From Amyelois transitella (Eukaryota > Arthropoda > Insecta > Lepidoptera > Pyralidae): a stretch of DNA of 64,000 nucleotides. The position numbers and the translations under genes were made by a program. The stretch's first letter is position 1, and every line of letters begins with the position of its first letter. Below are positions 8,526 through 62,500 of this stretch, piece by piece. The notes under the pieces were generated by a model, which saw only the letters and a program-made list of their open reading frames with translations, made no database searches and was not told where the DNA came from. The stretch lies in contig NC_083507.1 in assembly GCF_032362555.1 (NCBI RefSeq), positions 2,173,001 through 2,237,000 of the forward strand, in the 5' to 3' direction.

Positions 8526-8736
8526 CATCTAAAATAAGTAATTATTAAAACAGAAGTTCAATTTAGCATACATATAAGTAAATTAGTCAAATATTGGAAA
8601 AATAATAAAGAAAACAGAACACCATGTTGATAAGAAGGAACCTATTACGAACTAAGAAAGTATTTTGGAAATTGATTGACAAAGAGATAGCATAAAGTAA
8701 GTTTGAGTGGCTGAAGGTTCTTAATCTAGAAATTAT

Positions 8737-8993
8737 ACATACATATAATCACGTCTTTATCCCTTGCAGGGTAACAGAGCCAACAGTCTTAAAAATACTG
8801 ATAGGCCACGTTCAGCTGTTTGGCTTAATGACAGAATTGAGATTCAAATAGTTAAAACTTGCTGGCCGATCGCCTAAAATAAGAATACCAAGTTTATAAG
8901 CCTATCCCTTAGTCGCCTTTTACGACATCCATTGGAAATGAGATATAGTGGTCCTATTCTTTTTTTTCTATTGGTGCCGGGAACCACACGGCA
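8737..8993 (-). mobile_element. SINE-A, full-length copy
   Basis: All three modules are present, from the ACATACAT tail repeat to the terminal ACACGGCA head block. Small indels lie in the tail region. No clear target-site duplication was seen. Confidence 0.8.
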
Positions 8994-16100: not shown

Positions 16101-16943
16101 TAGTATTAAACTACACAACTATAGTTTTCCGATAGGCGGTCACTGGTACCGACGCTTCGGGCCCAACCCATAACACCCATAGACTGGTTTATCTAAGGTC
16201 ATCCGAGCACTTTCCACGGATATCGCCTGCACACGTGTGTTAAAACCAATTTTGTGTCAATTAGCATGAAATCGACATTCGGAGAGGATTGCTTTGTTTA
16301 GACTTTTATCAACTTAAGCTTTTAGAGGCTAATGTGTAAAAGAAATATGTGGATGATTTGGATAATGTTAATGAAAATGTTGAGAAAGTAATGGTAACAC
16401 CCACACCTTATTTAATTATTCTAAATTTTCCATTATTGATACACATTTACTTGATTAGGGGTTAGTTTAAAAGAGTTAAAAATGTCATCTACGCAAAATA
16501 TTCCGACATTTTGAGCTCAAGAAACGTGCAGTACTCGACCTTTTTTCTAAGATAGATATCAAAACTCAAATAGAAACCAGACCAAAGGTCAGAACTGTAA
16601 CTTACCTATTGATTAACTGAATTTAATATTTAATTCTAACATGAGACCGGCGATAATGAAGTGAACTAAAATCTAGATATTAATCAGGCAGACAATGAAG
16701 AAGTAGAAAATGGTAAAGCGGATCTTAATGCAGTAGTTGTAAAGTTTAAATTTGATATGGGAATTTAAAGTTGGATATGACATGAAGTGCGATGAATAGC
16801 CGACCACTTTCCAGACTAGACAGATCATAGACGCTGATCGTCATAAATCGACAAAGAGCTAAGTGGCTTTCACGGTTTGGGAAGGCCGTAGTCCTTCCGC
16901 TTTTGCAATAAGGGGGGATCGGTGTTCACTGGACAGGTTTGTT
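13108..16943. other. gene-poor AT-rich DNA
   Basis: No confident gene. A patch at 13868-14162 and an 86-codon open frame at 15355-15612 (minus strand, no ATG start) look partly protein-like, but matched no family I can name and are not called. Confidence 0.4.
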
Positions 16944-17197
16944 ACATACATACATACATATGGTCACGTCTATATCCCTTGTGGGCTAGACAGAGAGAGA
17001 ATAGTCTTGAAAAGACTGATAGGCCACGTTCAGCTATTTGGCTTAATGATAGAATTGAGATTTAAATAGTGACAGGTTGCTAGCCCATCGCCTTAAAAAA
17101 TAATCCCAAGTTTGTAAGCCTATCCCTTAGTCGCCTTTTACGACATCCATGGTGTGGTCCAATTCTTTTTTGTATTGGTGCCGGGAACCACACGGCA
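16944..17197 (-). mobile_element. SINE-A, full-length copy
   Basis: The ACATACATACATACATAT tail repeat, middle and complete head are all present. A 68-codon frame across it is translated repeat. Near-matching ACAGGTTT stretches sit on both sides, but the right one is offset by about 20 bases, so a target-site duplication is not claimed. Confidence 0.8.
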
Positions 17198-20100
17198 CAG
17201 CTATAATTTATTAGCTACACAGGTTTTGTTTTAAGTACTATTTACAGCATCTTGCCGAATCGTTACTTAAGTCTGTCATTTGAAGAGATCTATCACAATT
17301 ACAATTATTAAAATCGTTTATTTTATTAAGGTAAAGTTATGTAAATGTAATAACATGCCATTGCCATTTAAATAATAATAATAATAGTAGGTAAAGTAAA
17401 TGTAATAGAAAGGTAAGCGCTTCGGTCACGCTAAAAAAAGCGTCGTGTTCGTAATTAATTCTATTTCAGAAATGTTCAAATGGGATTTGTAAAATTCTTT
17501 AAAGATAGTCAATAGATAAATTAATGACTTACACCCGTTTTAAAACTTCAATTAAAAAGCTCGTAGAAAACAAAGGCGCGCCGAAAGAAGGTCATATGAG
17601 AATAATAAATAATTCCAATGCGCATTCATCACACGTATGGCTAATTAAAGGAATAATAGACCATCGTTTTGATATCAAGTTAAGATTCACAATAGATAGC
17701 AGAGGTAAGTACTGTGATGAAAATTTTGTAGACAGAATACTTATTAAAATTTTACTAAGTCAAAAAGAGCAATATGGACTTTAAGTGCTAGCTATAAGGT
17801 TTAATATAAGATATGGAGATGAAATCATTATGGTGTGGGAGACTTTCCAGACATTTGATATGTTACCCACAAACTGTTCAGCTTAAAAGATAGACCATAG
17901 TACTGACCTATTTCTATTCAAATAAGTATCATCAAATTTCAATATGGTATTGGTTTTACTTCTCAAACCTCAGTAAATATTATTTTTCTTGTAGTTATTT
18001 AAGTGTGGCTAGTGATATTATAATTTAACTAGCGGCTTTTGTTGCCGTGGGAATTAGTAATATGTTATTATTCAGTGATTTTATCCAAGATCTACATACA
18101 GTAAGTTATAGTAATCACTCTTTGATTTTAATTTTTAGCGTTGCATTTAAACTGTTTATGAATATTACAAGTGACCACGGATCATTGTAACATGATTCGA
18201 AACGTACGAGATAAAATAAAGGGAACATGCGTGCGCGTTTAATATCTGTATTATTTATAAATCAATTATCAAATAAATATCTTAAATCTACAATTTTCGC
18301 TGTATTTTGATGCAGTCACCGACGCAACTAACATCTTTGAAAGATTACCATACCGTATTCAATGCAATCATCATAAAATAAATTGGTATCTTCAAAACCA
18401 TTTTGCACTCGAAATAGCTTCGGATGCAATCCAGATGCCGTGTATTTATCCATTCTTCATTTTTGTATCCCCAACACGCTTGCCTGAGGCTCTGTTTGGT
18501 GTTCGTGACACCGGCGCGGTGACTGGCTTATTATTAAAGCAAACGAATGAACGGACGGACCGATAACCACTTGCGCATATTCATACGATACTGTGTAAAC
18601 ATTACTCTCAAGTTCGTGTACAGTCATAACTAAACACAAATCCCTAATACGAAGCAATAGGGCTTAAAACGCATTGGGGCCAAAAATGTGACCGGTTTCG
18701 GTTCAAAATTTTAACTTTGAAAGTGCATCTAGCAACAGTTGTGTGAATCGATGAAATGTGTCGTTTTGAACATTCGAAGTTTGAAGAGAAGTAAGAATTA
18801 ATTTAGTTTCTTTTTCTCCAAGAAATCGATAAACTTGCATAGAAACATTTAAAACATGTCGATAAAGCAAAAGAAGTAAATAGGAATCGTGGCAACTGTA
18901 AATACATTTGTCCATATCTTGATCCCGAAAAAGGTATTATTACACGTATGGATGTAGGTAATCATGTTAATCTTCCATTTACCACTCTATAGATGGAACT
19001 TAGATTGCAAATATGCATACAGTTCTAGAAACATCAACAGTTAGATGAAAACAACATTAAGACAAGCATTCTCAATGCAAATATCATACGTTCAGGAGAT
19101 ATAAACCTCGACAATGCAGCACCCCAGCCATCTTATGTAGTGTCAAATATTCAGCCAGGAGATCCTTGGTTATTCCGTTGTTTGTACAGGCCTGCCCTTG
19201 TTCAAACACGGACCCCACGGATGAGAGACTGGTTACACGTTAGATTTACGAGTCTCAACTTCAAGTTTTAGATAAGCTGAATATGGAACGGGTGTAATCG
19301 GAGTTATTTATTGGCAGAAAGTTTTCACAAGAGCTAGAAGGGTTGTTTTAGAAAGATAAGTTATGATATATTAGGTATTGAGATTCTATGAAAAAACTTT
19401 TAACTACACTCTTTTCACTGATTGGCTCGTTACATTTATAGTTGTGAATTGATTTGATAAAAGGTTATCTCCTCTTTCAAATAAATTGACATTTTTATTT
19501 AGCCTATTTTGTGTGTGGCGTTAAGGTCAAACGGCAGGTAAGACAGATGAGAAATAATTTACAGATCCATGAAATACCTTCAACCTTTATTAGTGGACTA
19601 GTTTAACAATATTAAGAGGGCGTGGGTTTAGCTAGACACGAGTAGCCACCAGAGGAAAGCAAGCTACTTAGTGAGCGCTGTAGTAGTCCAAAGGCCAAAA
19701 ACCAAAGGCCTGGGGCGCGCGCGGGTACTTTTATAGGGCTCCCGGGCCGTGAAGAGGGGCACAGGGGAGACACGACATCCCATGTGTCCCACAGATAGGC
19801 AAAGGCCTCCCCTTTCTCCCTCCACACAATTTGACAACTGATTTCGTTAAATATACGTTACAAAGATGGCCATGTAAAATTACTAATAACGTATTAAGCA
19901 AACAAAATTCGCAGTAAATCTTCATTAGGCACACTTGTTAATGCGCATTCGTGTACGAAAACAAAACAATAGACAACTTTCGCATGAGAAACTAACATTT
20001 CCCATACAATACTGTAGCGAATGCGTAATAAAAAGTGCGCGTTTGTCTCAGCCCGCGGTGATGTAAAAAGCCTCAAAAACAATTATTTTACATAATACAC

Positions 20101-20247: not shown

Positions 20248-20527
20248 TAGTGCCGTGTGGTTCCCGGCAGTGCTGTGTGGTTCCCGGCACCAATACAAAA
20301 AAAGAATAGGACCACTCCATCTCGTTCCCATGGATGTCGTAAAAGGCGACTAAGGGATAGGCTTATAAACTTGGGATTCTTCTTTTAGGCAATGGGCTAG
20401 CAACCCGTCACTATTTGAATCTCAATTCTATCATTATGCCAAACAGCTGAACGTGGCCTATCAGTCTTTTCAACACTGTTGGCTCTGTCTACCCCGTAAG
20501 GGATAAAGACGTGATCATATGTGTGTT
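20248..20527 (+). mobile_element. SINE-A, full-length copy with 14-bp target-site duplication
   Basis: The copy is complete, from TGCCGTGTGG to GACGTGATCATATGTG. It is flanked by a perfect 14-base direct repeat, gttgttgcaactac, at 20234-20247 and 20528-20541. The first 20 bases of the head are duplicated at its start. The direct repeat is direct evidence of insertion by target-primed reverse transcription or a similar process. Confidence 0.9.
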
Positions 20528-20541
20528 GTTGTTGCAACTAC

Positions 20542-36628: not shown

Positions 36629-39600
36629 CTGTAATTGAAATTTTAATTTATTTTGTTAATACGTTGCATCACATTAGAATTAACACCGTTTTTGACAGAT
36701 CTACACATTTTTTTTATCATATTGTAATAAAAATTACGTAGGCAAGTCAAAGCCAATCAGAGGCCTCGTCACTCGATGGACTTTCACATACCACATTGTA
36801 AAATATTTATAGTAACATAAACCAAATGAGCCAGGATAATTTAGAATACAGGAAATTTTTTATCCAGGAGATAAATAATAATTTGTATTTGACTATCATG
36901 GGCCGCTTGCGTCATAAAAATTATATAGAACATCATGAAACATTTTAAGCCGCTATCGGTGTTTTATAACGATTAATTAAAATAACCTTTGCATAAGAAT
37001 ACATAATCTGAGAGGTAAAAATTAAGAATATGCGAAGTGACCTGCGACTAGAACTTTAAGTCTAAGAGATACAATTTTTTTTGTGAAGAAATAAATTGAT
37101 AAATTGTTCGGCGTGTAAAGCACAGCTACAGCTAACAAATGGATTTTTTAAAAAAAAAGAACTGCCGTGAAAAACTGACCAAATTTGTTTGAAAGTAACG
37201 CTTTCAGAATTAAGTCGACCTATTGTGCTGTTCAGTGCGATATGAAATATAAAAAATTAAAATAAAATTAATACTTTTTTTATTGTTTTAAAACTTTATG
37301 CCATAAGGCATTCTCTACCAGTCAAACCTTTAGACCAAACTTAATGTGTGTCAGAATGGCGGGTGTACCTCACGGATTTTAATATCTGTTTTGGATTAAA
37401 AACGTACCTGATGTGTACTTCAGTGTACCTATCCTAAAAATCTGTGTACCTCCTTCTATGTAAAAATATTTCAATCTATAAAGGTCACATTCTGAAATCA
37501 TACATTTAGCTTTTTCTTACATTATTACGAAGATCGTCATAACACTCCCATCGCTTGCCTCGGAAGGATACCTACATAAAACTATATACTGTAGTAATGA
37601 ACTAGAACTAGATCATTTATACATAAACATTTTGTTGTTGATATATGTTAATTATAATTTGTATTGTGCAACTTCTTTTCTGTTTTGTTCAGAATGTGTC
37701 ATAACTGACCAGTTACAAAAAAAAGAAAAATAAAATTTTAACATACATACATACATACATACATAAAATCACGCCTCTTTCCCGGAGGGGTAGGCAGAGA
37801 CTACCTCTTTCCACTTGCCACGATCTCTGCATACTTCTTTCGCTTCGTCCACATTCATAACTCTCTTCATACAAGCTCGGCGGTTTCGGGTACTTTTGAC
37901 CTGACCCTTTACCAGGACGTCCTTAATTTGATCAAGATACGTTCGTCTAGGTCTTCCCACTCCGACCTTTCCCTCCACACTCTCCTTGTATATCTGCTTA
38001 GTCAACCTGCATTCATTCATCCTCTCCACATGACCGAACCATCTTAACATACCCTTTTCTATTCCTGTAACTACATCTTCTTTCACATCACAACATTCCC
38101 TTATCACGCTGTTCCTTATCCTGTCACTCAATTTCACACCCATCATACTCCTTAACGCTCTCATTTCCACTGCATTTATTCTGCTTTCATGCTTCTTTTG
38201 CCATACCCAACTTTCACTCCCATACATTAATGTCGGGACCAACACGCCCCTGTGCACAGCCAGTCGAGCCTTTTTGGATAGTTTCTGACTGCTCATAAAG
38301 GCATGCAAAGCTCCATTCACCATGTTCCCCGCGTTCACTCTCCTTTCAATATCACTATCATACTTGCCATCTGATGTAAACTTTGATCCTAGATATACAA
38401 ACTCTTTCACTTGCTCCACTTTTTCTCCTCCAATCAAAATATTACATGCTGTCATTTCTTTCTCCATTTCAAAAACCAGTGTTTTAGTTTTACTTACGTT
38501 CACTTTCATTCCTTTCTCTTTTAAAGCTTCATGCATACAGTTTACCATCTCCTGTAACTCCTCCGCTGATGACGCCAGTATAACCTGATCGTCGGCATAG
38601 AGCAGACATTTGACGAGTAACTCATTCATCCTTAATCCACTTTTAGACTCTTTCAAATCTGTCAAACAGCTATCCATAAATAGGTTGAACAGCCACGGTG
38701 ACGCAACACATCCTTGCCTAACGCCTTTCTCAATCTTAAACCACTCAGTGTGCGCTCCGTTTATCCTGACACAAGCACTCGAATCCTCATATAAGGATTT
38801 CAGTGCTCGTATTAAGAGACTGCTCACCCCATGCATAGAAAGTGCTGACCACAATTCATTCCTCTCAACTCTGTCATAGGCCTTTTCCAGATCTACGAAT
38901 GTGCAATAGACTTTTTGACTCTTGGCCAAAAACTTTTCGGCTATGCACCGCAAGGAAAAGACCTGATCAGTACATCCCATTCCCTTTCGAAATCCCGCTT
39001 GAGCATCCCATATTTTGTCATCAGTTTCATTCCTGACTCTATTAATCAATACCTTAGCATACAATTTGCCGACGACGCTAAGCAGGCTTATACCACGATA
39101 ATTTTTGCAGTCCAGCTGTGACCCTTTTCCTTTGTAAAGTGGCACGATAACAGCCTTACACCAATCTTTTGGTACTCGGCCGCTTCTCCAACACAAATTG
39201 AAAAGGCAGTACAACTGACTAGCTACTACGCCTTTTCCTGCTTTAAGCATCTCGACCGACACTCTATCACACCCAGCAGCCTTTCCCGCTTTCATACTCT
39301 TAAGTGCTTCCACAATTTCGAACATTTCAATTTCGCCTTCCATCTCATTCTCTTTTTCTTCGCTATAGCAGAAATCTTTCTTATTTCCTTCCTTTTTTTC
39401 AAATAAACTTTCAAAATAGTCCTTCCATATCTTTAGTACACATTCTTCTCCTTTCACAACGCTACCATCCTGGCATCTGATCCTAGTCAGCTCTCTGGTT
39501 ATAGTATTTCCTCGGGCTGACCTTACGGATTTCCAGAATACTTTCAGATTTGACTGAAAGTCTTCTGATAGCCTTTTATCAAAATCCTCTTTATACTCTT

Positions 39601-42600
39601 CTTTCTTTCTAATCACAGCTTTCTTAACCAAATCTTTCATTTTCTTATATTCCTTACGTGCTTCATTCACATCTTCATCTATAACCTCTTGCATTCTTAA
39701 GTTAGCTTTTGCTGCTAACAAATCCAGCCATGCTTTCTTCTTTAATCGCACAAGTTCTTGCACATCTTTACTCATCCACGCATTTTTGTGATTTTTTCCT
39801 TTCCTTCTTCTACTTACACCACACACTTCAACAGCTACTCTCACAATTCTTTCTTTAAATTCCTTCCATCCATCTTCAATATCGCTCATTTCCTCTAAAT
39901 CTCCAAATTCATCCTTCAGTCTATTAATATACTTCTTACCTACATCCATATCTTGCAAATTTTCTACTTTTACTCTTTCCAAAGCGCTGGTTTGCTCCCT
40001 TACCCTGTGCCGCCAGCGATTGAAGATACCCCTTATCCGGGATATCACCAGTAAATGGTCCGAGTCAATGCCAGCACCGCGATATGCACGGGTATCCAGC
40101 ACTTTGTTCTTCAATCTTTCATCTACAATCACAAAGTCTATCATACTTTTTAAAATACCTTCCACTCTTGTGTAGGTGTGGATCTCTTTATGTTGAAACA
40201 TTGAGTTCGACACAAAAAGATCCCACTCTAGACAAATTTCTAATACACTTCTTCCATTATCATTCACCTTTTCGTCACCAAACGCACCAAGCACCTTTTC
40301 ATATCCATCACGCTTTACACCCACCCATCCATTAAAATCACCTAACATAATAATCTTCTCATTTGGCTTGGTAACTTTCAATACTTCTCTTACACTATTC
40401 CAGAACTCCTCGTTTTCGCTTTTTGCTGATGTTGTACCCCTCGAACCCACATCCCAAGGTGCATAAACACCTAGAACGAAGATCCGAGTGATTCCAACTT
40501 TCAGCCTAATCCATAGAAGACGAGGGCTGACACACTCATACTCATTCACGCACTCAGCCATTCGTGCAGAAAGAATTAGACCGACCCCTTGACAGCCTCG
40601 GCTGGTACTGGAAATTCCAGACCAATACGCCGTGTAAGGGCCGTGCTGCGTCGCGTCGCATCCTTTCCGCTTCGTTTCATTCACGCACAACACATCCAAA
40701 CGTCTTTCATCCATCATCTGGCATACTTCCTCAATCTTATCCTTCATTCCTCCTCTTACATTCATCGTCGCAAAGCGGCTTTCAGCAGACCGCATACCGC
40801 TCCCGCCGGGAACGAGACGTGATGGGGTGCGGACACCATCGCCGCCATCTAGGTGCTCTTTCAAAAAATTTGCATCCATGCGATTCCCACGAGACGCTAG
40901 GGAAAAATTTTGTCCGCCCCAGCAGAGCCCCGCATGCCAGGGTAAGGCTAGCCATTACCTGGGGGTCGCCCAACCCCATGGCGGAAGTGGCACGCTCGAG
41001 ACTAGGCTCGCCCCTAGCCATGCATCCATCGGCGCGGCAGACCTTAGATTGGCAGGGATTTACATTAAAGAGGAATCCCAAGTCTATCCCTTAGTCGGCT
41101 CTTACGACATCCGTGGGAAAGAGATGGAGTGGTCCTATTCTTTTGTAATGGTGCCGGGAACCACACGGCAGTTAGATTATTATTATATAAAGATTATATG
41201 TCTTACATAACACACAGATTAATAATCACACAAAGGTATACATTACTTGACAATGTTTTAAATTGTCTTATCAGTCAATTACTCCTAATTACTTTAATAT
41301 TTTCAGATCAATGATATGATTCCTAAGAATAAAAATTTTAACATGAAAAAAAAATGTTTTTTTACATTTTCTCAGCACCCTTAATATTTTTTATTTATTT
41401 AATATTTGTTTCTGCAGGTACACAAGAGGTACCAAATCTACAAATACAGTTAACTTACCTACATATGCTAACTAGAAGTACACCCGCGGTCCTGACGTCA
41501 GGACCGCGGGTGTACCTATTTTATTAAAAATCTTTACATAAAAGGAGGTACACAGATTTTTAGGATAGGTACACTGAAGTACACATCAGGCACGTTTTTA
41601 ATCCAAAACAGATATTAAAATCCGTGAGGTACACCCGCCATTCTGACACACATCAAACTTAAGACTAAATAACAACTGAAATTAAAGTAAAGATAATAAC
41701 CAGCTGTTACTCACGAATTCTTCCTCTTATGTTAGTTATGAGTTCAACTATCTTAATCACCATAAAAATCTGTTTAGCCGGTAGAACATTAAGACAAGAT
41801 AATAGGTTATATTTATTTATGTTGTTAAATGTTGATTGTACATTGCTAAGTCGTATAACAGTTTGTTTTTTTTTTGTGGAAAGAAGTGTCGAACATTTAA
41901 ACCACCAAAGCCTTTTAAAATGAAGCAAGAAAGAATTAAACAAAATAACAGTTGGTTTTTTTTTTTGTGGAAAGAAGTGTCGAATATTTAAACCACCCAA
42001 GCTCTTAAAAGTGAGGCAAGAAATTAAATAAATAGTTTAATGTTAAGCCTATAGACAACGACATCTGGTGTTAGAAACGATAATTTTGTGAATAATGTTA
42101 AAGTATTGTGGAAACCACGGAGCATGCAGTTCGCCCTTAAAATTTTGTTTAATTTTTATATTTATTAACTGATCTGTGGGCTATGTAAAAAACAAAATTG
42201 GTATCTAAAAAATTTTAAGAAACCATTAGATTTAGATATATTACAAAATTAAATAAAAATGGTGTTTTCTTATTCATTTTCAAAATGTAAATATGATGCC
42301 ATGAACCATTTTCTCATTCCTGTATTGCGAATTTTCGATGAGATCATTTCGTGACTCAATATGGATTGAACATGGTTGGTTGCTTTTTATGTCAACTTAT
42401 TAATTTATATAATTTAGTAGATAAACACAAAGGCCATACGACCTTATCTAATAGTAAAACCGAACTCATTTGAATATTCGTAACAGTTAAATAAGGTGCC
42501 AATGCGTGTTTACGCGTCAGTCATCTCGCAACTCGCATAATAATAAAACTGATTAATTAATTCATATGTTTAACACCTTAATTAACCACTCTCACACTAA

Positions 42601-45600
42601 CGTATCCAAAACTGAGATGCATACCTAATAGAAAATCATTCTAAACTCACAGATCAGTTAATAAAAACCCTCCACCCAAAGACGGCACAACCAAAAAAAA
42701 AAAAAATTAGAAAAAAAAAACCGTGAGAAACCCAAACTACTCGTGCACTCAGTACGTGTTCCGCACCAGTTCTGTGTCGCTGATCCACGCCGCGCCGTCC
42801 TCAACGCTGGAAGACATCTATAAACCAACACATGCTAAAAATCACCAATACTATCTACTTGTATTCTGTTATATGCCAAACGGTTGAAAGTGGCCTATCA
42901 GTCTTTTTTAAGACGGTTGGGGCTCTGGCTAAACCGCAAGGGATATAGACGTGATTATATGTATGTAAACACAATCTGCTTGTAAAGTTTTACTTTTCTT
43001 TAAAGGATAGTTCACAAGATACGCTTTCTTTTATGGTTTTCAAGAAATCAAGAATTATTGTTTGTATTAATACAAACGTAATTTCAGTTCCATTTTTGAA
43101 TGATTTGATGAAGTTTTCCAAAAGCATAGAAATTTTTGCTTCTTTTTTTTTATATAAAATTTTCTTGAGATCATAGATGTAAATTATTATGATATATTAC
43201 CCTTAAAACCTACTAATACCCTTAAAAAAGCGGAATAGCGTACATCTTTAATCTACCAAAACCTCACTGCAGTACTACCATAATAAACTACAAACTATAT
43301 ATACATAGGTCAAAGCCAAATATCACTCAATGAAATCATCACGATAATATATATACAAGGTAAAAAGACTCGCGAATGTTACATGCTATTTGTGACAAAC
43401 TGACAAAGCACGAGCGAAACTACTTCGCATAGACAACAGAAAATGGCCATTAAAAGTGTAGATAAAAATTAAGGATTACTGAAGTCAGAAAAGTCCAGTT
43501 TGCAAAATAGTCGCGACACGATCGCGTGAAACAAAACAAAAACGTATATCTCCATTCCGGGGAGAATTTAAACTCTGGTCAACTATGTTTTCTTTACCGT
43601 AAGATCATCACTAGTTCATCTTACGGTAAGAGAAAACATCGTGAGGAAAACTGCACCTTCAGGTAACTGGAAGCCAAATCCAATACGGGTAAGTATCCCC
43701 TGCAAAGGTTGCGGAGGTCAGATGGGAGTCGCTTCGTGTAAAAACCTGACTCACCCAATCTAGGGTCCATGGTAGAAGGCGTACCCCGGGCTCCTGAGTG
43801 GTGAGGATGCAACCGGGACTGAAAGCCAGGAGGAAGAAGATAGTGATAATTTTAGCTCCCTTAGTAACTACTCGTACTTTGGCTGCTCAGTCAGTCAGTC
43901 AGTAGCATTTCTTATAATTTATAAGGTAAAAAATAAGCCTGTCTTTCTAACTACCAGCTCTCCATCCTAAGGAAAAAGTTATTTTTTTTTTATTATTTCA
44001 TTGACTCATTAACTAACCTCTAGTATCCCAGCACTGGGCTCCGAGGCGTACCCCTCGAAGTGTCTCTGGTCCTCCTCATAGTCGGAAGATGAAGGAGAAT
44101 CGTCCATATCGTGACCGGTGCGGACCGAACAGACCATCTGAGCTAGGTCCGTGAATGTGTAACTGTGAAGGCATTACATTAAATTCATAAAAATTAATAT
44201 AAGACTCGCCACATAAGTGAGAAACATAGCTTGAACAAGATTTCTCGGTGGAATCAGATGATCGTGCTCTCAGATTTTTATCACGCAGTATTTGCACTAA
44301 GCTCTGAGAAACACACATTTCTCGCATTTTACTAACTCTTAAGCATGATATGCTTTGAATGGTACCAAATCAGATTGGTTTAACTTTCGTTCACTCACTC
44401 GGTCACTGACCTCCCGCCAACTGTCCCGACGTTGTTCCTAGAAATATCCGACGCCGTAACTGTACTTTAGGTATCTTCTCGAATGACCCGTACCTAACTT
44501 CAGTAAGGTTCAACAAAGTCAGTCTACTCACTCAGTCAATGACGGCTGAGCGTCAGGTTTCCTTCCCTCAGTAGCGGCGCCACTGACGCCCCCGCCGCCG
44601 CCGCGACGTTGCCCCTCGAAGTAGGCAGCGCCGTGTCTGTAGCCAACTTCACGTATCTCGTCGAACGAGCCGAATTGTAAAGTCTTGTACGCGTCGATTG
44701 GCGGGCGGATGTACTCGCAATAGTCCGAGTTTTTCACTTCCTGCGAATAATTTATATTAGACTTCAATTAAAAAAAAAATAAAGGCACTACCATAATTCG
44801 AGCGAGGTTACTTTCAAAGGGACTTCATAAAGGTTAGATTATGACGGTTGCAGGTCATGGAAGTCACTTCGTATTTACCTTAGTTACCCATTACAACATC
44901 GTGGTCATAAAGCAAACTCCGAGCTCCTTTCCAAAATTCCCAGCAGGAGGGCGAAGTCTTGTTATACATTTGACTACATGTCTTCTTCCTCCTGGCTTAA
45001 GTTCCCGTTGCATCCTCACCACTCTGGAGAGAACCCCGGGGTATGCCTTTGACCATGGACCCTGGATTGGGTGATTCAGGTTTTTAAACAAAACGAAACA
45101 CGTCTGTCCTCCGCCACCTTTGCAGGGGAACCTAACCCGTATTGGATCGATCATGATTACACATTCCGCTGCCTGAATGTGGAGGTTTCCTCACGATGTT
45201 TGCCCTCGCCGTAAGAGCATCAGTTAGTATACAAACGGGCACGTTACCGATTCGACCATCGACGCTCTTAGACTACAAGTATCTAGTACAAAAAGGAGAA
45301 AATAAGAAAAATAGTCAAGTTCGTACCTCTAACTGCCTATTACAGGACACGTAGGCCAGTCGACTCTGTATATCAGGCAAATTGGGTACTTTGACAGGAG
45401 TCGTGAAGGGGTTCCATCTGAAACAAACAACGTTATGTAACCGATTATTATTATCGTAGCTCCGATGGTAATGGAACGTTGATATCTCCTATCTTTTTCT
45501 AAGAGATGAAAAGAACGGATAGGGAAAAAGGTAATAAGCCTTATTATCTCTGACGTGCCGTGTGGTTCCCGGAAAAAAAAGAATAGGACCACTCCATCTC

Positions 45601-48600
45601 GTTCCCATGGATGTCGTAGAAGGCGACTAAGCGATAGGCTTTTAAACTTGTGATTCTTATTTTAGGCGATGGGCTAGCAACCTGTCACTATTTTAATCTC
45701 AATCCTATCATTAAGCCAATTGCCGAACCTGGCCTGGTCGGCTCTGTATACCCCGCGAAGGATATAGACGTGACTATATGTATGTATGCGTATGTCTATA
45801 ACGGAGGGGCTTACCAATAGAAAGATTAGGCAGAAACAGATTTACCTTTTCCATAGGAGCCACCAGCCGGACAGGTCGTCACCATAATTGGTCAAGTCCA
45901 CATCGTCTTGGGAGCCAACGTCGATCGCCAGGATATGTTTAGCGCCTAACGATCTCATCACATCAGCTGAAATGTGTGAAATGTCATTGTAGCAATAGAA
46001 AAAGTTATGAGTGAATTTTAATATTTATTTCTTAATTCAAAATGGCTGATTAGCAGTAAATTACTTGAAGCAAATTATAATCTATTTTTGAAAATGTTGC
46101 AATGCTTCTGGAAAAAGGTAACGTCCTCTAATTTCTTTTTAAAAATGGTCTCAATTTCTCGAAAACCTAGGAAATGACATTTTTATTTCATTTATACCGA
46201 CAAGAACTAAGTAATCCAGTAATCATAGAACTGAAACCTGTAAGATAAATCTTGACCTCTGTGACAGATGTCAATTTTTTTTTTAATAATTACATTAAAG
46301 TTATCGTTCTATCCTACTGCCACAGTAATCAAGCTATATTTTACAGCGAGTTATAACATACCTGGCACATTATTAACATAACACCCGTCCAACAGCAGGT
46401 GGCCATCTTGCGGGTCGCAAATTGGCGGGAAAATGCCGGCGATGCTCATTGACGCCCTGCAGTAGCGCCACAGGCGACCTGATGGGGTGCGATAGCGTAG
46501 AACCGAGGTCTAGGGTTCGAGCTCCGCAGGTTGCCATCACTTACCGTTGTGAGTGTAAATGTTTTGAATGATTGTGATTCAGTTCTTGGTCACGATAGAA
46601 GGAGAAGAATTATTTGATTGATGCTGCTAATGCTTTTGGGGATACTTCTAGTTAATGTACAAAACACTACAATTTACTGAAATCGAATTTTCTTTAGCGG
46701 CGTTGTGCGCTATTTGTGATGGTTAAAAATGTTTAACTCGCGCCAGGAAACGTGACCTGATCTAAAATTCGTAAGATTTTCTTCCGATGTCAGCATACAC
46801 AAAATAATTTGTTTTATTTAATATTCAAGTTTTTATTTCTGTCGGCACTGTCGGAGTGCAACCCGCTATTTTTTAATCTCATTACTCGTTACAACTTATT
46901 CGACTCAAATGTTTTTTCGACTTGGTTCAACCCTTAGTCAATATTAACAGAAATAAAAACAGTTGGACTTTTTTTGTCATTTTCTAAAACTAATTTTTAG
47001 TCTTTTTGGCTGCATAGAACAAATGTTTTGAAAGTTGTCAAAAAAACATAATAAAAATGCTCGTTTAAAAAAATAATCCTCTAATATCTACTAATTTAGG
47101 TTCATCTACTGATATTATGGACATGCAAACAGATTCATTAGTTTGTGATATTTAATACAATATAAACCCTAATTACTCCTTTTTATTAGATTTGTGTAAA
47201 GAAGCAGCAAAGAAGAGAATGTAGGAAGATATATTTGCGTGTTTATTAGTGTGCGAGTCTATTATCAAAACATTTACACTCAAATCTACCCTCAACTGCT
47301 GATTGGTTGTTTACGGCGTACGCGTGACGCACACATAGAATAGTGCATTGTGATTGGTTTACCTGGCAGGTTGTTGACGTAACCGCCGTCCAATAGGAGG
47401 TGGCCGTCTAGGGGGTCGCACAGCGGCGGCATATACCCGCTCAGGGACATGGAAGCGCGTATGTAGCGCCATAGAGAACCTGCGGTGCGCGTAATGCGTT
47501 AACTAACGTTCTTAATTCAAAACTTTAAATGTCTTTAACTTTTTTTAAATGTCTTATACGCGAGACATACTTATCGGCCAGTTATTTTCCATTGATTCGA
47601 GCCGAAATTAGACAAAAATTATGTATACAACATATTCATTTTTTTTTTTATTTATGAATGGTTGCTGAAAGTCTTATGACATTTTGTGTATGCGAAACAA
47701 GAAAACACACTCCATGGAGAGGAAAGTATGAACATTGAAAAGCGAGACATTTCTAAACATGTAATTTCAACACTGCGATATGAAAATAAATTTTACCAAC
47801 CCAAAATTTGCCACAGTTCATTTTTTACCTGTGAATCATTGACACCATACCATAATAAAAACAAGTGAGAGTGGAATACAGTGATAAACAGTCCTTGCTA
47901 CAGTTTTGGACATGCATCGCATGCTAGTGGACAGAAGGGAGATTCAACGTCCGTATTGAGAGCGAAGATGATACAAACTAAATGTTTAAAACATGAAATG
48001 TGTAATTATTTACCGATGAAATAATGATTCTGTAAGAAATGCTTCACAGATGCATTTTAAGTGGTGTTTTTATCAATACGTAGATAAATTGATTAACAGA
48101 TAGTGTTTCAAATTTTAATTTATATATTTGTCTTCCATTCCGATCAAAACAAAGACTTAGTTTCTAATGCTACCCGCCACACAAATGCTATTTCCGACCG
48201 TAATTATACCTACCACCATACTTAGTACACTCACCAACACACATACATCACATACGCCCTGGACATCAGCCTGACAGCCCATATAATATAATATATCAAC
48301 ATGGTAATAGGATAGAATCTACGATTGTGTTAGTAGAAAAATATAGGTTGTTAAACTAAATATAACTTAATGTGTAATACCTAACACCAAAAATGCCAAG
48401 GGAGGCGTCTAGTTACCTGTAACACAGGTCCACCTGGACCTTTTTCAGGAACTAGGCTCTTCGCAGGACTTCCATGTCATTTATAGATTAAACACATTAC
48501 TGTTAACTAGTTAGTAAGGACATTTTTGTGAAGAGCAAACGAATATTCATTATTACTTACACATAAGTCATCTGTCATGTGCCTTTGTACTGTACTGCTG

Positions 48601-51600
48601 TTTTTATATTTGTAATGTTCTCCTTTAGTGAACAATAAAGCATTTACTTACTAACTTACATAAATGTGTTGTACTTGTGAGATAGTTATGAGACTAGAGA
48701 GTGACAATTCGACGAGAAACACGTTATCGGTGCTATTTGTCAGAATCCTATAACTAATAATTAAATACATACATACATAAAATCACGCCTTTTTCCCGGA
48801 GGGATAGGCAGAGTCTACATCTTTCCACTTGCCACGATCTCTGCATATTTCCTTCGCTTCATCCACATTCATGCAAGCTTTCATTCATCGTCTCCACATG
48901 ACCAAGCCATCTAAATGTAATAATTTTTAATTATTAATTCCCTATAACTAATAATTAAATGTAATTACCCTAAAGACCGAACCCCAGATTTTAGGATTAT
49001 TCCAATCCCACCTATAATTTAAATGCGTCAAAATGTTTGTTACCACTTCGCAGTCACACAACTATAATTTATCCTTGGAAAAAACTTATTTTTTGTGAAT
49101 CCTACGTCGTAAGAAGGTCGAGAAAAACGGAAATTTAATTTTAACTCCGGCGAGAATCCGTGTGCTTATTATGTCAAACAAATCATAACATTGTAGTAAT
49201 CATATAAAAATGTATCTACCTCCTCAGAAAAGGTTTGATCAAAATCGCAAACTGTGTTGCTTCTCAATTTTCTAAGCAATACCTCAAATGTGAAATTAAT
49301 TTCAATAAATTATTTATATTACCTACACCCACTGTAGCAAATTCGCGCTAGTGAACAAAATAGCTACAATCATTTTTTTTATAAAACGAAATCACGTAAT
49401 ATAATATGTGTGTGACGCATTTTTTATGTTTTTTAATAACCACGTAAATATAATTTAAAACTATACGACCAACATCAGTGAAGCATTCTCAACTAAAAAC
49501 GGCAAACTACAATGACGGGATGACAAAGAGGAATATAATGAGATGAACTAAAAACCACACTCATGCATATACATGAAAATGATATTATTGATGATACACA
49601 ATACATACAACCATTTCATTAAAAAAAAAACACATCCAACCCGACATTGTGAAACGCACCGTTAAAGAATATATTCTCAAAAGAAATAGCGTTATTCGGT
49701 AAACCAATCACAAGCGTTCTCATTATTATTTTTTTTCGTAATGGCAACCCCAGAAGCAAATGTCGGATTCGTACAGTTAAAAAATAATACTTTTATTTTT
49801 TTCATTATAGCAATACTGTGAGGACACCAAAACATATATCTAAATTAAACATATATTTTATCAACAGGACATACAATTGGAATTTGGACATCAAACACAT
49901 AAATGCAAGTGAGTGTGGTTGTCAAAAACAAAACACTGTAGCGGACAAAATTAAATTAAAAAAAAACTGAGATATGAGATTGTGTTGTTGAAAACTTAAC
50001 ATCACGTCTCAACCTAACCATGGTACAATGACGAAGGCACTCACGTCGGAAGAAATAATCATAAACTCATAACTTATGATTTTTATTTATTGTTATGAAT
50101 TTTAGCGGTGAATTTGATTACGTAGGCTATTAGTAACACAAAATAAGATGCAAATATCACAACCCAGTGACATGAATATATTTTTTTTATAGAAAAGAGA
50201 AATTGACCATTGATTACTTGAACCTCTATACTGTTTTAAGATGCTGAAACAGAATTATACTGTTTTTTTAAATATTTTTTATAATATGGCGTGGTCACGC
50301 CTTATTATCAAAATATTTGAAACGTGCAAACGCACAAAAGGACAAGAATTACTGTATCTATTCAACAGATTTCCGACAGAAATACCAGACGCATTGTACC
50401 AACCTAACAAAGTCTCCGTCACCATAGAAATTTGAATCATATGATGGCATCGACGAATCCGCAGATAAAATAAATTTAAAAAAAACTAGCTTCAACGATG
50501 TCGTGTGAAGCCATGATAAGTAACAATAAATCGTATAAAAACCTCTTTACATCTGGTCGGCAGACTGAGGTGGAAAACTACAGATTAAATATTGTAATAT
50601 GTACTTATTTTAAGTCATATTTTGGGTGTTAAAATGGCAAAGTGCATATTTAAATAGGAGATTCTTAAATATTTATGTTTAATTTCGCCTTGTCTACAAA
50701 ATGTTTGGCGATGTGAAATTAGAACAGTTTCAGGAATAAACTTGATCCATGGGTCCTTTGGACACATTTGACTAACTAAGGTAACAACTAAATGGATAAT
50801 TTTAAATATAAGAAACTCGGAAAGTTTTATTTTTTTTTTTGTGAAAAAAAGGAGAATGATGAGAATGTCATATTATAACTGGATATTTTGTGTTAGAATC
50901 ACCCAGTTAAATATATTGCACTGCCTTAAACACCACATAATTCTATTTACCATGCATTTTTCTATACTTCCATTAAAATTTTCCGACCACAGCATGGATA
51001 TAACACAACACGGAATTATTTTAATTAACTCTTTTGGGTTAGTAAAAGTGCAAAGTAAGCGGTTAACATAATAAACACATTTAAAATCCTGTCCATGAAT
51101 GTGTTGTGTTAACGTGAAATATTTTGTGATACCCGCAAATTGCTAAAGCTTGAACAGCGACATCTGTCTGACCAATTATCTAGTGAGAAACTTGTTGCTT
51201 TTGACAGCGTTTAAGTAGTTTTGTGGCGTTGTACACAGATGTCGCCACATCACAACTACTGTCACATAGATGGCGCAACGTGGCTTCTAAATAAAAAATT
51301 AATGTGCTATTTCACACAAGGGACATATAACGAAAAGTACGGCGTGTGTTGCCAAATCTATTTAAACCACAATGCACAAATTTTATGATGTCATAGTCAA
51401 TTAACTTTTTATGGAAGCAATTTGCGGGGATAAATATCCAATAACCTTAATACACATCATATTTAGAAAAAGTCAATTTTATTTTACAGACGAGAGTGTT
51501 GGCTCACACCATCGTCGTTTTAAAAATGTAATTTGAAATACTTAAAACGATAATTTGATTGGCTTCTTCTACTGCCGATGGATACACGTGACTTCAGAAC

Positions 51601-54600: not shown

Positions 54601-57600
54601 GATAACGTGCAATAAAAGTTACAGTATTCCGATATCCGATAAATTTCTCGGAATGAACCCATTGCTTTCATGGTTACACATTCAAATGCTTGAATGTGCA
54701 GGTTTCACACACCGTAAGAGCATCCGTTAGGTTAACAATTAAACTAATGTTGGTTAGCACTCAAACTAATGTAAATAATTAAAAAAAGAGTCATGGCCGG
54801 GGTAGAACTTGAACATGTGTACCGACACGTATTACTTGGGCATTTTATCCGGGCACCTCAACCGTTCGACCACCGTCGCTATGACGCGTTCTACTTGACC
54901 AAACGAGTCGGAGCAAGTGGACGCGAATTTGTATGTGATTTATTCAGCGAGAATCAAAGAATAGGAACACTCCATCTCTTTCCCATGGATGTAGTAAATT
55001 CTTTTTTAGGCGACGGGCTAGCAACCTGTCACTATTTGAATCTCAATTCTATCATTAAGCCAAATAGCTGAACGTGACCATTCCGTATTTTCAAGACTGT
55101 TCGCTCTGTCTACCCCGCTAAGGATATAGACGTGACCATATGTATGTTGTATGTATGTTCAGGTACTCACTTTGCCAATGCTGGGCTGCTTGTCGCCCAA
55201 AGCGACTATCAATATGCAGTCAGCTTGCCGAATACAACGCTGAGTCCACTGAGTCAAACTCGGGTCGCACTGGTAGAGAGCCACCTGGTAATAAATAGGT
55301 TACAAAAACAATTTTTATTAAATAGAATTGAATAGATTTATTTTCAAAATTGTATACAAGGGATACCTCACTTATTGACATCACATCACTTAAATCTAAT
55401 TATAACTACTATAACCGCTTCCAAAGCGCATGTGTAGAAAAAGCGGCGAAACGAACTACACTGCAGCGGTTAAAAGAAGTAACCGTCAATATTGCGGGTT
55501 TTGCGATACATTTTAGCCATGTGGTTTTCGGCAGTTTATAATAAGCCCAAGGGGTGGGTTTATTATAGCATCCCAATGGATATCGTAAAAGGAGATTAAG
55601 CAAAAGGCTAACAAACTTGGGATTCTTCTTTTAGGCGATGGGCCAGCAACCTGCACTATTTAAATACCAATTTTATTATTAGCGCCACACGCATTTTAAC
55701 CTGTACACCTTACCTACCCCTCTTGGCTCTGTCTACCCCGCAAGGTATATAGACGTGACTATATATGTATGTACTAGCTGTGCCCGCGACTTCGTCCGCG
55801 TGGAATGGTTATTTTGGGAATCATTGAAGCCCTCAAGGATGAATAATTTACCCCCGTTTTATTCACATTCTCCATTATTTCTTTGCTCCTTATAGTTACA
55901 GCGTGATGTTATATAGCCTAAAGCCTTCCCCGAGAAGTGATCTATTGAACACAAAAAGAATTTTTCAATTCGAACCAGTCGTTCCTGAGATTACCGCGTT
56001 CAATCAAACAAACAAACTTTTTAGCTTTATAATATTAGTAAGTATAGATGTACCTTGTGCTTATCCTCTTGTTGTGCAAGCCACGAACTGAGCCTATATT
56101 CGTTGTTCGGGTCCATTATAGTCAAACCGAGTAACTTCCGAATCACGTCCGAAGTAAGACGCACTGTCGGACCTGCGAATAAAAAAATAAAGATATTGGT
56201 GACGTCACTCACAACATAGTTTGACCGTTAATAATAATTTGACTATATGGACGTTTTATTGTAGAATTAAGAACCTTTTATTGTAGAATTTATTATATTG
56301 TACGTATATAATTGTTGTGTCTTAATGATAATACTCGTAAAAGAACTGTTGTTCACCCTTGCCCCAGTTTTGTATATGATCCTCTTATTGTCAGGTTGGC
56401 AGGAAGAGATCCCACTTAGGGATAAGCCCGCCTTTGTACTGTACTGTTTTTATTTGTAATGTACTCCTTTAGTGAACAATAAAGCATTTACTTACTTACT
56501 TATTTATTATAGAACTCGCGCTTATATCATCTGGATCAGAGAGGTTATTTGCAAACTTTGACAAGTCGTGTCTTAACTTACCTCTCTTTTTTGTCTGCTA
56601 ACAATTTTAAGAGCTAGAAAGAGAGGGAACAAAATACGTCTCATCAACGTTCGTGAATAAACTCGGAGCAAATGTATGACGTCACGTTGTCAAAGTGTTA
56701 GATACATTTATACACCCTTTAATTTATTTTTTATTTTTTAGTTTTATAAGCTCATTAAATACTAATTACAAAGGGAGTAGTTTTGCTTTTGGACACAGTG
56801 TATGAGTAAATTTTCTGTAATAATAGTCGGAAGTTATAAATAAAAAAACTTTTATAATCTCATCAAGTACTAATGACAAAGGGAAAACACTGAAATAATG
56901 ACGATAATTAATTAACTAAGTAAAAAAAAAAACTTACCGATGGCACACAGCGAATGGTACAGCTCATACGTAAAGGCGGTCAAGGGAACATCGTCGCTCA
57001 CAGGCACCACGGCCACCGTGGAGAAGTTGTGCTGCGAAGGTCTAGACTCTATGGTCGCCGCGCCTAGCCCAGCTGTGGGCTTTTGCCAGGAACCTAAATA
57101 AATAAATAAATGTAAATAAGTGCCGTGTGGCTCCCGGCACCAATACAAAAAAGAATAGAACCACTCCATTTCTTTTCCATGGATGTCGTAAAAGGCGACT
57201 AAGGGATAGGCTCACAAACTTGGGATGCTTTTTTAGGCGATAGGCTAGCAACCTGTCACTATTCGAATCTCAATTCTATCATTAAGCTAAATAGCTGAAC
57301 GTGGCCATTCAGTCTTTTCCAGACTCTGTCTACCCTGCAATGGAACCATATGTATATATGTATGTAATGTAAATAAATATATAAGTACGGGACAAATTAC
57401 ACAGATTGAGTTAGCCTCGAAGTAAGTTCGAGAATTGTGTTACGAGATACTAACTCAGCGATACTATATTTTATAATAAATACATAAATAGATAATCATC
57501 CAAGACCCAGACCAATCAGAGAAGGTTCGTTTCACATCATGCCGCCGACGGTAAAATCACTGTTAAATCTATACCCACTCAGCATGTAATTAGTCATTTA

Positions 57601-59490: not shown

Positions 59491-59584
59491 GTGCCGTGTG
59501 GTTCCCGGCACCATTACAAAAAAGAATAGGACCACTCCATCTCTTTCCCACGGATGTCGTAAAAGGCGACTAAGGGATAGGCTT
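59491..59584 (+). mobile_element. SINE-A/LINE head, interrupted by the BEL element
   Basis: The intact head runs from GTGCCGTGTGG to GGGATAGGCTT, then stops abruptly where TGTTGG begins the presumed LTR. It shares the CATTACAAA and CCCACGGATG variants with the LINE head at 41067-41172, so it may be a LINE 5' end instead of a SINE. Confidence 0.75.
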
Positions 59585-62500
59585 TGTTGGAGCATATATA
59601 CATAAATAAAGAATATTAATTTAATATTTTTACACCATTTCATAGACAATGTTTAACTTTGTAAAATTAGTTTCTGAACGACAACGCGGCGGTTGTCTAT
59701 TGCATTTATATCCGTTTCCTTAATTCAAAAAAAATCACGCTAGATCTTGTGCTCGCCATAACCTCATTTCGCAAAAATATTGTCATCAAAAGAAATAAAC
59801 GGAATTACACAGGCATTTGAACCAAAGGAATCATTCATTTCAAGACCCAAGCGCCAACATACGTTGTGGACCTTCGTCGCCGCATGAAGACATAGAACCA
59901 GCGAGGTTAAGACGTCGGAGGAACTGCTGCATACATTCGGTACGGCCAGCCATCCTTCCTAACCTCGTCCCTGTGAGTTCAATCTGTGCTAATACCGTGC
60001 TTTGTTCATATTTCAGTTCTTGTGCATCGCTATAGTCAGCTTTCTGCCGTTGCTAGCATCGGCTGACGCCACAGTACGAACAGGAATATTCACAAACCGT
60101 AAGTCCTTTCACAAACAACCAAAATGAGCCTAGTTAATGATGAAGCTAAGCCTAAATCTCGCGATAGGTCTCCGTACAGTAGGCCCCCTACCGCCTTCTG
60201 TGACAAAGATAGTGAGAAGTTGACTGATTTAGTAAAAGGCAGAGGCATAATCAAAGGTCGCCTCACAAGACTAACAACCTTTATTAATAGCATAACTCGA
60301 GATCAATTAAATAGTCAAAAATGCATTGATTTAAAACTGCGTATGCAAGGCGCAGCCAGCTTACTTACTGAATTTAATAATATTCAAACAATGATTGAGA
60401 AGATAGTGATAGACTCTGATTTAGATTGCCAATTAAATCAACGAGATTTATTTGAGGATAGCTATTATAGTGCCTTGTCACGAGCTGAATACTTACTTAA
60501 CCGAGCCGAAGTCTCTGATGGCTCCAGTGTGTGTCATAGTAAAATAAAATCAATTAAATTACCTGTCATATCTATGCCTACATTCGATGGTTCATATGAG
60601 CATTGGCTCGAGTTTCGAGATACATTTATGTCTTTAGTTCATAATTCTAATGAAATTAGCGATATTCAAAAATTTCATTACCTAAAATCCTCATTAAAGG
60701 GCAGTGCGGAGTTGGTTATAGATTCTGTGGAGTTCTCAGCCAGCAATTATACTATAGCATGGGAATTACTTCTCAATAGATACAATAATAGCAGTATGTT
60801 AATACACAACCATGTTAAGGCCTTATTTACCATTCAGAAATTAACTAAGGAGTCGTACCACATGCTCAGGCGCCTAATTGATACAATACTTAAGAATTTA
60901 AGAGCTTTAAAAATGCTTGGTGAACCCACTGAGCACTGGGATACACTGGTCATATTCATAGTCACTTCTAAATTAGATGAAACTACTGAACGCGAGTGGG
61001 AGCAATATAAGTGTACTATTCGTAAACACAATGAAACTAAATCATCACTAAAGGTAGATGATCTACTCACCTTTCTCAGGGACCGTGCTGAGATGTTGGA
61101 AACATTGCAAGCCTCTCATAGTAAGATTAATCTTGATTCCAAAAAACAAACTACACATAAGGCTCAATGCAATGTCTCCACCAAGTCACAACAAAGTCGC
61201 ACTACCTATAAGAAGCCATGTTTAATGTGTTACAATGATCATGCACTGTATTCCTGTCCAAAGTTTTTGGATGCTAATATAGACACTAAACTACACTTTA
61301 TAGCTACCAACAAGTTGTGTGAGAACTGTTTACGCTCTGGACATACGTTAGAAACATGTAAGTTTGGTCCGTGTCGAAAATGTAATAGAAAACATAATAC
61401 GCTAATTCATAGTGACACGTCTAATGACGCTCAAGTAATGACGCTTCATTCAAATTGCAATAATCGTGAGCCGAGAGATGTACCGACCGCGCCCGCGACC
61501 CCCGCGGTCCCCGCGGTCGACGTCCCCATGCATCGGTCTAGCACGGCACAGGTAAACAAGCCGCACATAGATAACACTCGCTATACGTTCAATAATCAAT
61601 CAGTTAAAAGTATAAATTCTGTTTTATTATCGACTGCTATGATTGAAATAGCGGATAATCACAATAATTATCATATTGCACGCTGTCTTCTCGATTCAGG
61701 AAGTCAACTTTGTTTTTTGTCTAAGGATTTATGTACAAAACTTAATGTTACTTTAATACAGTCCACTTGTGAAATACGAGGAATAGGTAACTCGGTTACA
61801 AACTCAACACAGATCTGTGATGTTAAAATAAGATCGCGCACCGGTGCCTATTCTACGAGTTTAAAATGTTTTGTGTTGCCTTACATTTCATGTACATTGC
61901 CGGCGGTTGCATATGATCAAAACGAACTATTCATCCCTGAACATATACAGCTAGCCGATCCATTATTTTACGAGTCCCACAATATTGACATTTTGATTGG
62001 CGCAGAAATATTTTGGGATTTATTATGCGAAGGTAAAATAAGGTTACCAAATGGCCCAGTTTTACAAAACACAAAATTAGGTTGGATAATTTCAGGGCCT
62101 ATACACAGTAATACGCACAATATTGATAGGTCTTTCCAATGTAATTTTTCGCACGCTATTGAAACACAATTACGGCAGTTTTGGGAACTAGAGGAACTGC
62201 CTAAGGCTAGTCTCACACACACGGACGACGAGCGTGCTTGCGAAGAACATTTTATTAACACTACAACGCGCACAAGTGATGGAAGGTTCTGCGTACATCT
62301 GCCGCTTCAGAAGTCACCAGCTAGCCTTGGCGAGTCGTACACTCAGGCTAAAATTCGTTTTTTAGTTTTAGAAAGACGCCTCGAACGTAATATTACTTAT
62401 AAAAAATTATACACTGATTTCATACATGAATACCTTGATTTGGGTCATATGAAAAAGGTAAGTTCATATGGAACACCACATTATTTTTTACCACACCATG

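Follow-up and report, generated by a model that had tools for sequence, protein, structure and literature searches.

An abundant SINE-like family of Amyelois transitella shares both ends with an RTE-like LINE and is probably a bipartite non-autonomous element of that LINE's lineage

The 64,000-nt stretch of Amyelois transitella DNA analyzed here (the window; contig NC_083507.1, positions 2,173,001 to 2,237,000) carries many copies of a short SINE-like family, SINE-A, together with a full-length LINE, and raises the question of whether SINE-A is an ordinary tRNA-headed SINE or a non-autonomous partner of that LINE. Searched with a profile made from seven complete SINE-A copies, the window gave 28 matches at E ≤ 0.01; four are LINE ends and 24 are SINE-A pieces, a count that includes one head-only piece and two adjacent pieces that are possibly one copy. 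Set against three LINE pieces in the window, this agrees with the first-pass annotation, which had counted about 20 SINE-A pieces and far fewer LINE pieces. Full-length SINE-A copies lie at 7803..8074, 8729..8993, 6922..7166 and 16941..17198 on the minus strand, the last two with the same 11-nt head deletion, and at 45555..45799 on the plus strand; an old copy lies at 55516..55773 (plus). Target-site duplications of 14, 11 and 20 bp had been ascribed to SINE-A copies near 20248, 57120 and 48767, and all three duplications are present. The first two flank SINE-A copies at 20270..20540 (plus, its first ~20 nt occurring once more in front) and 57120..57379 (plus), while the third belongs to a 5'-truncated LINE tail piece at 48762..48915 (minus) and not to SINE-A. 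The other LINE tail piece is at 8465..8525 (plus).

The full-length LINE occupies 37741..41170 (minus) and runs from a 5' head (41063..41170) through a leader that makes up the remaining 5' untranslated region (40880..41062) into a single intact open reading frame of 1036 codons plus stop (37769..40879), in which an endonuclease precedes a reverse transcriptase. Pfam models matching this frame were RVT_1 (4e-41), Exo_endo_phos_2 (3.2e-6) and Exo_endo_phos (2.6e-4), with one of the two endonuclease models at its curated cut-off and Exo_endo_phos below its own; no further Pfam family was matched at E ≤ 0.001. By sequence, LINE-1 ORF2p and R2 are among the PDB relatives of the protein, and no relative was found in viral_contigs. 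The tail (37748..37804) comprises the last codons, the TGA stop, TTT and TATG repeats, leaving a very short 3' untranslated region. A very short simple-repeat 3' untranslated region directly past the stop is described as a feature of the RTE clade (PMC2887409), and the LINE has it in addition to one frame of about 1000 codons encoding an AP-type endonuclease and a reverse transcriptase with no RNase H. We refer to it as RTE-like.

The 5' end of the LINE (41170 to 41063, minus) matches the SINE-A profile with E = 4.4e-29 (nhmmer). Aligned to the SINE-A consensus, the head has 98 identical and 6 mismatched bases (98/104) and 10 gap letters in two gaps, a score reached by 0/1000 shuffles, and the homology begins at the terminal bases of each element. 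The first-pass annotation had placed this sharing at 41067 to 41172; the sharing of the 5' ~105 bases is borne out, and the start moves to 41170.

To ask whether the head is part of the LINE, we turned to other copies in the same assembly. The query contained the head, so that head-less LINEs could be missed and young full-length copies were favored; it recovered 39 further copies, 37 of them full length, with a median pairwise identity of 99.6% and an open frame of at least 1000 codons in 26/39. In all 39, at separate sites, the head is joined to the same leader, where the first pass had predicted this for most copies, and none of the copies found lacks the head. Target-site duplications were sought in 39 copies, namely the one in the window and 38 other loci, a further locus with a broken 3' part being left out. 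In 34/39, a duplication of 8-15 bp ends no more than 17 nt from the head, against a chance expectation of 1.25%; the remaining 5/39 have no adjoining duplication of at least 8 bp. Because these duplications adjoin it, the head represents the true 5' terminus of the LINE in the copies found. The LINE itself is a young family and apparently recently active.

The window copy differs from most of the others, whose duplications end no more than 17 nt from the head, in that no duplication adjoins its head. Instead, a 13-bp word is found at 37732..37744 (plus, on the 3' side and overlapping the end of the tail) and at 41332..41344 (plus, on the 5' side), and nowhere else in the window on either strand. 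This is a likely target-site duplication, as good a pair being found in 13/19,600 random trials, in which the tail window was narrower than in the search itself. The ~161 nt upstream of the head (41171..41331, minus) are therefore part of the insertion, as transduced or jumped-to sequence; their best other match in the window has E = 0.027. These extra nucleotides in front of the head might suggest that it is a SINE fragment lying beside the LINE, or a SINE into which the LINE inserted. With the identical head-leader junction in 39/39 other copies at separate sites, most with duplications by the head, this reading is ruled out for the copies found.

At the 3' end the relationship is weaker. 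Without the TATG repeats, the LINE tail and the general SINE-A consensus are identical in 27/34 columns (0/1000 shuffles), and against the young SINE-A subfamily the tail shows 24 identical and 7 mismatched bases and 2 gap letters; the tails are thus about 77-82% alike across ~33 nt, compared with 94% for the heads. Mismatches number 6/104 in the head and 7/31 in the tail (Fisher p = 0.011). Between the two ends, the SINE-A middle matches neither the LINE leader (582/1000 shuffles equally good) nor the remainder of the LINE (107/200), and the first-pass description of a matching tail and a differing middle of about 110 bases is upheld. The middle counts against a simple origin of SINE-A from the LINE, and the unequal divergence of head and tail is not what a single simple deletion of the LINE predicts, unless constraint differs between them.

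The SINE-A copies are uniform in structure. Twenty copies of a young subfamily, taken as the best matches to one window copy (16941..17198), are 94.6-99.6% identical to their consensus, and 20/20 fit the profile nearly end to end. Duplications of at least 8 bp flank 16/20, with none of that length adjoining the other 4/20, and their lengths do not differ from those of the LINE (Mann-Whitney p = 0.64). Old copies are also present, down to 71% of the consensus. SINE-A thus carries both ends of an RTE LINE, the tail match being the weaker, in a uniform arrangement of which many copies are flanked by target-site duplications.

Taken together, the data lead us to regard SINE-A, with good though not full confidence, as a bipartite non-autonomous retrotransposon of the RTE-like LINE lineage. 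It would retain the 5' terminal ~105-115 nt of the LINE and, at the other end, a form of the 3' tail that closes with (TATG)n, while a ~100-nt middle unmatched in the LINE would stand where the LINE has its coding region. The shared head would start transcription, probably by Pol II, or be required in the RNA. The LINE endonuclease and reverse transcriptase would bind the tail, nick AT-rich DNA, prime on the TATG tail and copy up to the first base of the head, leaving duplications of 8-15 bp. We infer that SINE-A is moved in trans by a LINE of this lineage and that it derives from the lineage and not the reverse; what bears on the former is the similarity of the tails and the indistinguishable duplication lengths.

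Which member of that lineage serves as partner is a narrower matter. The first pass had named SINE-A as the non-autonomous partner of this LINE and expected LINE tails to cluster with SINE-A subfamilies. The two shared ends and the lack of tRNA character stand, but the expected tail clustering is not supported: by eye, LINE tails in young copies and in decayed pieces remain LINE-type and unlike those of SINE-A. With tails of distinct types, this very LINE is only a possible direct partner, and a sister LINE is about as possible. A sister RTE family with a SINE-A-like tail would then be the true parent and partner, and the window LINE would share the head, and more remotely the tail, by common descent. 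The distinctness of the tails in both young and old copies speaks for this, while no such family was noticed among LINE pieces in the sequence fetched around known copies; we give it somewhat less than an even chance, as a narrower form of the bipartite reading whose odds overlap with it.

It is also conceivable, if unlikely, that the head moved in the reverse direction, with template switching giving an RTE LINE a new 5' end, the SINE-A head, before that LINE spread. The heads are more alike than the tails, old SINE-A copies exist where the fetched LINE copies are young, and extra or inverted 5' sequence in some copies suggests template jumps at 5' ends. However, the query favored young full-length LINE copies, and the LINE head has fixed differences of its own from SINE-A (six bases, and 2 and 8 nt fewer) and is thus no recent copy of the SINE-A forms seen. 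In a related form, to which we likewise assign a small probability, the head would be a free-standing 5' module, either a promoter or an RNA element, under more constraint than the tail and exchanged between SINE-A and LINE after their tails parted; at its boldest, the 5' end that the LINE has today would come from the element parasitizing it.

The remaining reading takes SINE-A for a conventional Pol III SINE with a tRNA-type head and only the tail in common with the LINE, and draws on precedent in the Lepidoptera. SINEs of comparable length whose tails resemble those of LINEs have been reported there with tRNA or 5S heads, namely PxSE5 (with PxLINE1.1) and SfSE1 (PMC8010984) and HaSE1 (with HaRTE1.1; PMC3272025), whose 43-bp tails are 82-84% like those of a LINE. 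HaRTE1.1 is named an RTE (PMC3272025), and PxLINE1.1 is 3.2 kb long and ends in ATGT repeats (PMC8010984). As far as these descriptions allow comparison, SINE-A differs in its head, and the 5' regions of PxSE5, SfSE1 and PxLINE1 are reported as very divergent, so that they have no shared 5' end of the kind found here (PMC8010984). The SINE-A head is the LINE's 5' end, and it gave no Rfam match at the gathering score. With E relaxed to 10, one full SINE-A copy and two heads showed no tRNA or 5S match; the full copy had no match at all, and the two heads gave two implausible chance matches each (E 2.5 to 9.6). Box A and box B scores in the SINE-A consensus were reached by 183/500 and 342/500 shuffles, respectively, and are not above chance. 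Thus no tRNA-, 5S- or 7SL-type Pol III promoter is recognizable in the head, and a Pol III SINE appears very improbable. The window contains no tRNA genes. Runs of at least four T occur in 20/20 full SINE-A copies and of at least five in 9/20; given these runs and the lack of conspicuous Pol III boxes, SINE-A is probably transcribed by Pol II.

The Bov-B LINE of ruminants belongs to the RTE clade. Bov-A2 (ART2A) is, like SINE-A, a short and abundant retroposon with units homologous to this LINE and, as described, no Pol III promoter; PMC4324840 cites Onami and colleagues for the proposal that Pol II transcribes it. As described, Bov-A2 consists of two linked monomers with an AGC-type repeat end, whereas SINE-A has a head, an unmatched middle and a (TATG)n tail. 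SINEs mobilized by AviRTE in birds contain 5' and 3' untranslated pieces of an RTE LINE as a bipartite tail behind a separate promoter-bearing head (PMC4844689), whereas SINE-A opens directly with the 5' end of the LINE. Hagfish SINE2-9_EBu and SINE2-10_EBu join RTE 5' and 3' parts without the middle, a bipartite non-autonomous type called common for RTE in the same account; they add tRNA- or 7SL-derived heads (PMC7245038), where SINE-A has none detected and an unmatched middle instead. Metulj of Heliconius is an abundant ~267-bp butterfly SINE for which, as for SINE-A, an RTE partner is suspected from the tail (PMC4016481, PMC6685494); a tRNA-like head is reported for it (PMC4016481) and, as far as described, no LINE-derived one, unlike SINE-A. 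The SINE-A and LINE pair most likely belongs to this known parasite-of-a-parasite type, with SINE-A as passenger of the LINE lineage. An abundant "SINE" is here better read as a stripped LINE retaining the LINE's own 5' end, and annotating such elements as tRNA-type SINEs can mislead when it relies only on length and tail. Copies of both elements are young enough for recent activity, which makes the role of the LINE 5' end in trans mobilization directly testable.

In viral and prokaryotic collections, searches of viral_contigs with head, tail and middle patterns and of genome_contigs with a head pattern gave no match, and a literature search with head sequence strings found no publication. Inspection by eye had pointed to a self-cleaving (HDV-like) ribozyme or a known structured RNA within the head, but Rfam gave no support and the idea was rejected. 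The best score of a predicted H-type pseudoknot in the head was reached by 10/300 (SINE-A) and 36/300 (LINE) shuffles, and the energy of the predicted tail hairpin by 95/500 and 98/500, respectively; both signals are weak. By eye, the two predicted tail hairpins occupy the same place and differ by one C-G to U-A swap, an observation on two lineages and not a proof. The head-only piece at 59491..59585 (plus) agrees with the LINE at two of three marker sites and was considered as an older LINE head, but we attach no weight to it. Its matched part stops too early to show the 8-nt difference and resembles SINE-A (92/94 bases) more than the LINE (88 bases identical and 3 mismatched, with 2 gap letters).

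The abundant short element SINE-A and the RTE-like LINE of the window are alike at both ends. A profile built on seven full SINE-A copies gave 28 matches in the window at E≤0.01, comprising four LINE ends and 24 SINE-A pieces, in line with the roughly 20 pieces counted by the first-pass annotation. Against this profile the LINE head scored E=4.4e-29 and the LINE tail E=2.6e-5. The head alignment of LINE and SINE-A has 98 bases identical, 6 mismatches and two gaps, the tail alignment without TATG repeats is identical in 27 of 34 columns, and each score was equalled by 0 of 1000 shuffles. Only the SINE-A middle differs, as this ~100-nt stretch gave no match when compared with the whole LINE. The first-pass annotation had proposed that SINE-A is a non-autonomous partner of the LINE carrying both its ends; its observation was sound and its reading good except for an extra 5' stretch, the tail types and the piece at 48767, a 3' LINE piece misread as a SINE-A copy.

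The LINE lies on the minus strand, with its head starting at 41170 and a frame of 1036 codons that opens with an ATG at 40879 and closes with a TGA whose last base is 37769, directly followed by TATG repeats. Searches of its protein against Pfam identified a reverse transcriptase (RVT_1, 4e-41) and an AP-type endonuclease, the latter through Exo_endo_phos_2 (3.2e-6, right at that model's cut-off) and Exo_endo_phos (2.6e-4, under that model's cut-off), and no further family at E≤0.001. Among 11 distinct matching PDB sequences, LINE-1 ORF2p ranked top and R2 proteins second. Lepidopteran RTE elements have the same frame, domain and tail features in the accessible text of PMC2887409, and "RTE-like" would be the safest name on these domain and layout features.

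Further LINE copies were sought in the assembly (327 Mb, 33 contigs) with a query of head, leader and some flank, for which a headless LINE would rank low. The best 40 of 2477 first-look candidates were scored, and all 40 were 96-100% identical. Leaving out the window copy, 39 were fetched, and the head stands at the start of 39/39 copies, as the first-pass annotation had anticipated, with the head included in the query. Alignment to the LINE end in one piece, or nearly so, was obtained for 37 of the 39; an internal deletion marks the copy at locus L033, and at L044 the copy breaks at base 2079 of the LINE. With L044 left out and the window copy added (n=39), 34 copies were flanked by duplications of 8 bp or more, with the end of the 5' repeat no more than 17 nt from the head, against a chance rate of 1.25%, and in 23 of those 34 the distance was at most 6 nt. 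No such head-adjoining duplication is present in the window copy or at L053, L054, L056 and L060; in three of these five (L053, L060 and the window copy) one lies farther upstream. Median pairwise identity among the 40 copies was 99.6%, and a frame of at least 1000 codons is intact in 26/39 fetched copies and in the window copy. Taken together, the head-first copies, adjoining duplications and high identity indicate a young LINE family that, among copies found by a head-containing query, has the head as its 5' terminus. Two subfamilies (L009-L028 and L029-L067) have the same head and are told apart near the frame start by a small indel and some base differences. Their BLAST identity, gaps counted, is ~96% in the first ~350-415 nt past the head, and their overall identity, gaps excluded, is at least 99.0%.

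SINE-A activity is recent too. In 307,959 bases (the window plus 59 fetched loci, partly overlapping and picked around LINE copies), the SINE-A profile had 175 matches at E≤0.001, LINE ends counted in, including 20 full-length copies whose identity to their consensus is 71-96%. When the copy at 17198 was used to search the genome, the best of 3994 first-look candidates were 39 others at 89-93%. The 20 best-ranked of these form a young subfamily, 94.6-99.6% identical to its own consensus; 16/20 carry duplications of 8-15 bp, which do not differ in length from those of the LINE (p=0.64), so that the integration signature resembles that of the LINE. SINE-A copies at 7166 and 17198 have an 11-nt head deletion in common, and by eye those at 5857 and 54956 have a common deletion fusing the GTCGTAAA region of the head with the TTCTTTTTTAGGC region.

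The earlier view that SINE-A is not tRNA-headed held. Rfam gave no match at gathering level across the window, and, with E values up to 10 allowed, no match to a tRNA, 5S, 7SL or ribozyme family for the LINE head, a full SINE-A copy and the head-only piece at 59491, for which only four implausible matches to other families appeared. Box A and Box B scores were no better than chance. Runs of at least four T on the sense strand before the tail occur in 20/20 full SINE-A copies, and of at least five in 9/20, which would be awkward for Pol III transcription; Pol II may transcribe the element instead.

The tails were expected to group together, and by eye they fall into two types, one in the LINE, even in decayed pieces (L015, L053 and L028, 74.7-80% identical), and another in SINE-A. 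Between the LINE and the young SINE-A subfamily, mismatches number 6/104 in the head and 7/31 in the tail (Fisher p=0.011), reflecting either stronger constraint on the head or separate histories of head and tail. A sister LINE with a SINE-type tail may be the true parent of SINE-A, or the head may have passed from SINE to LINE. The head-only piece at 59491-59585, beyond which lies unrelated AT-rich sequence, carries the LINE-type base at two of the three sites used as markers; it is identical to SINE-A at 92/94 bases and to the LINE at 88, with 3 mismatches and 2 gap letters. It is nearer to SINE-A overall and does not settle the direction of the head's travel, a testable question that the pair poses.

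SINE-A is a further example of an already known kind of element. In the accessible parts of the sources, bipartite non-autonomous RTE elements are said to be common (PMC7245038), Bov-A2 was proposed to be a retroposon transcribed by Pol II and with homology to Bov-B (PMC4324840), and lepidopteran SINE tails common to LINEs are known (PMC8010984, PMC3272025, PMC6685494). AviRTE SINEs carry a bipartite 5'/3' UTR tail after a separate head of their own (PMC4844689), whereas in SINE-A the LINE's 5' end is the head. In the same parts, PxSE, SfSE1, HaSE and Metulj heads are reported as tRNA or 5S, no report of a LINE 5' end common to these SINEs was found, and PMC6522560, PMC13295347 and PMC10298559 held nothing decisive.

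The window LINE is an unusual copy, having no duplication adjoining its head. In a search of both strands of the 64 kb, a 13-bp word turned up at two places only, 37732 and 41332 (equalled in 13/19,600 random trials, whose tail window was narrower than that of the real search). With the head at 41170, ~161 nt (41171-41331) lie between, a stretch missed when the insertion was taken to start at the head. L053 has a comparable 125-nt stretch upstream of its head, L060 has 26 nt that by eye largely repeat its own head in inverted orientation, and L044 repeats its first 18-20 nt as two additional tandem copies. Such 5'-junction sequence occurs in LINE and SINE-A alike, the SINE-A at 20270 having its first ~20 nt once more upstream (~20251-20271), which suggests that the enzyme switches templates or snaps back at the 5' end. 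By eye, the LINE copy of L060 is lodged within an antisense SINE-A copy, and its insertion is therefore younger than that SINE-A.
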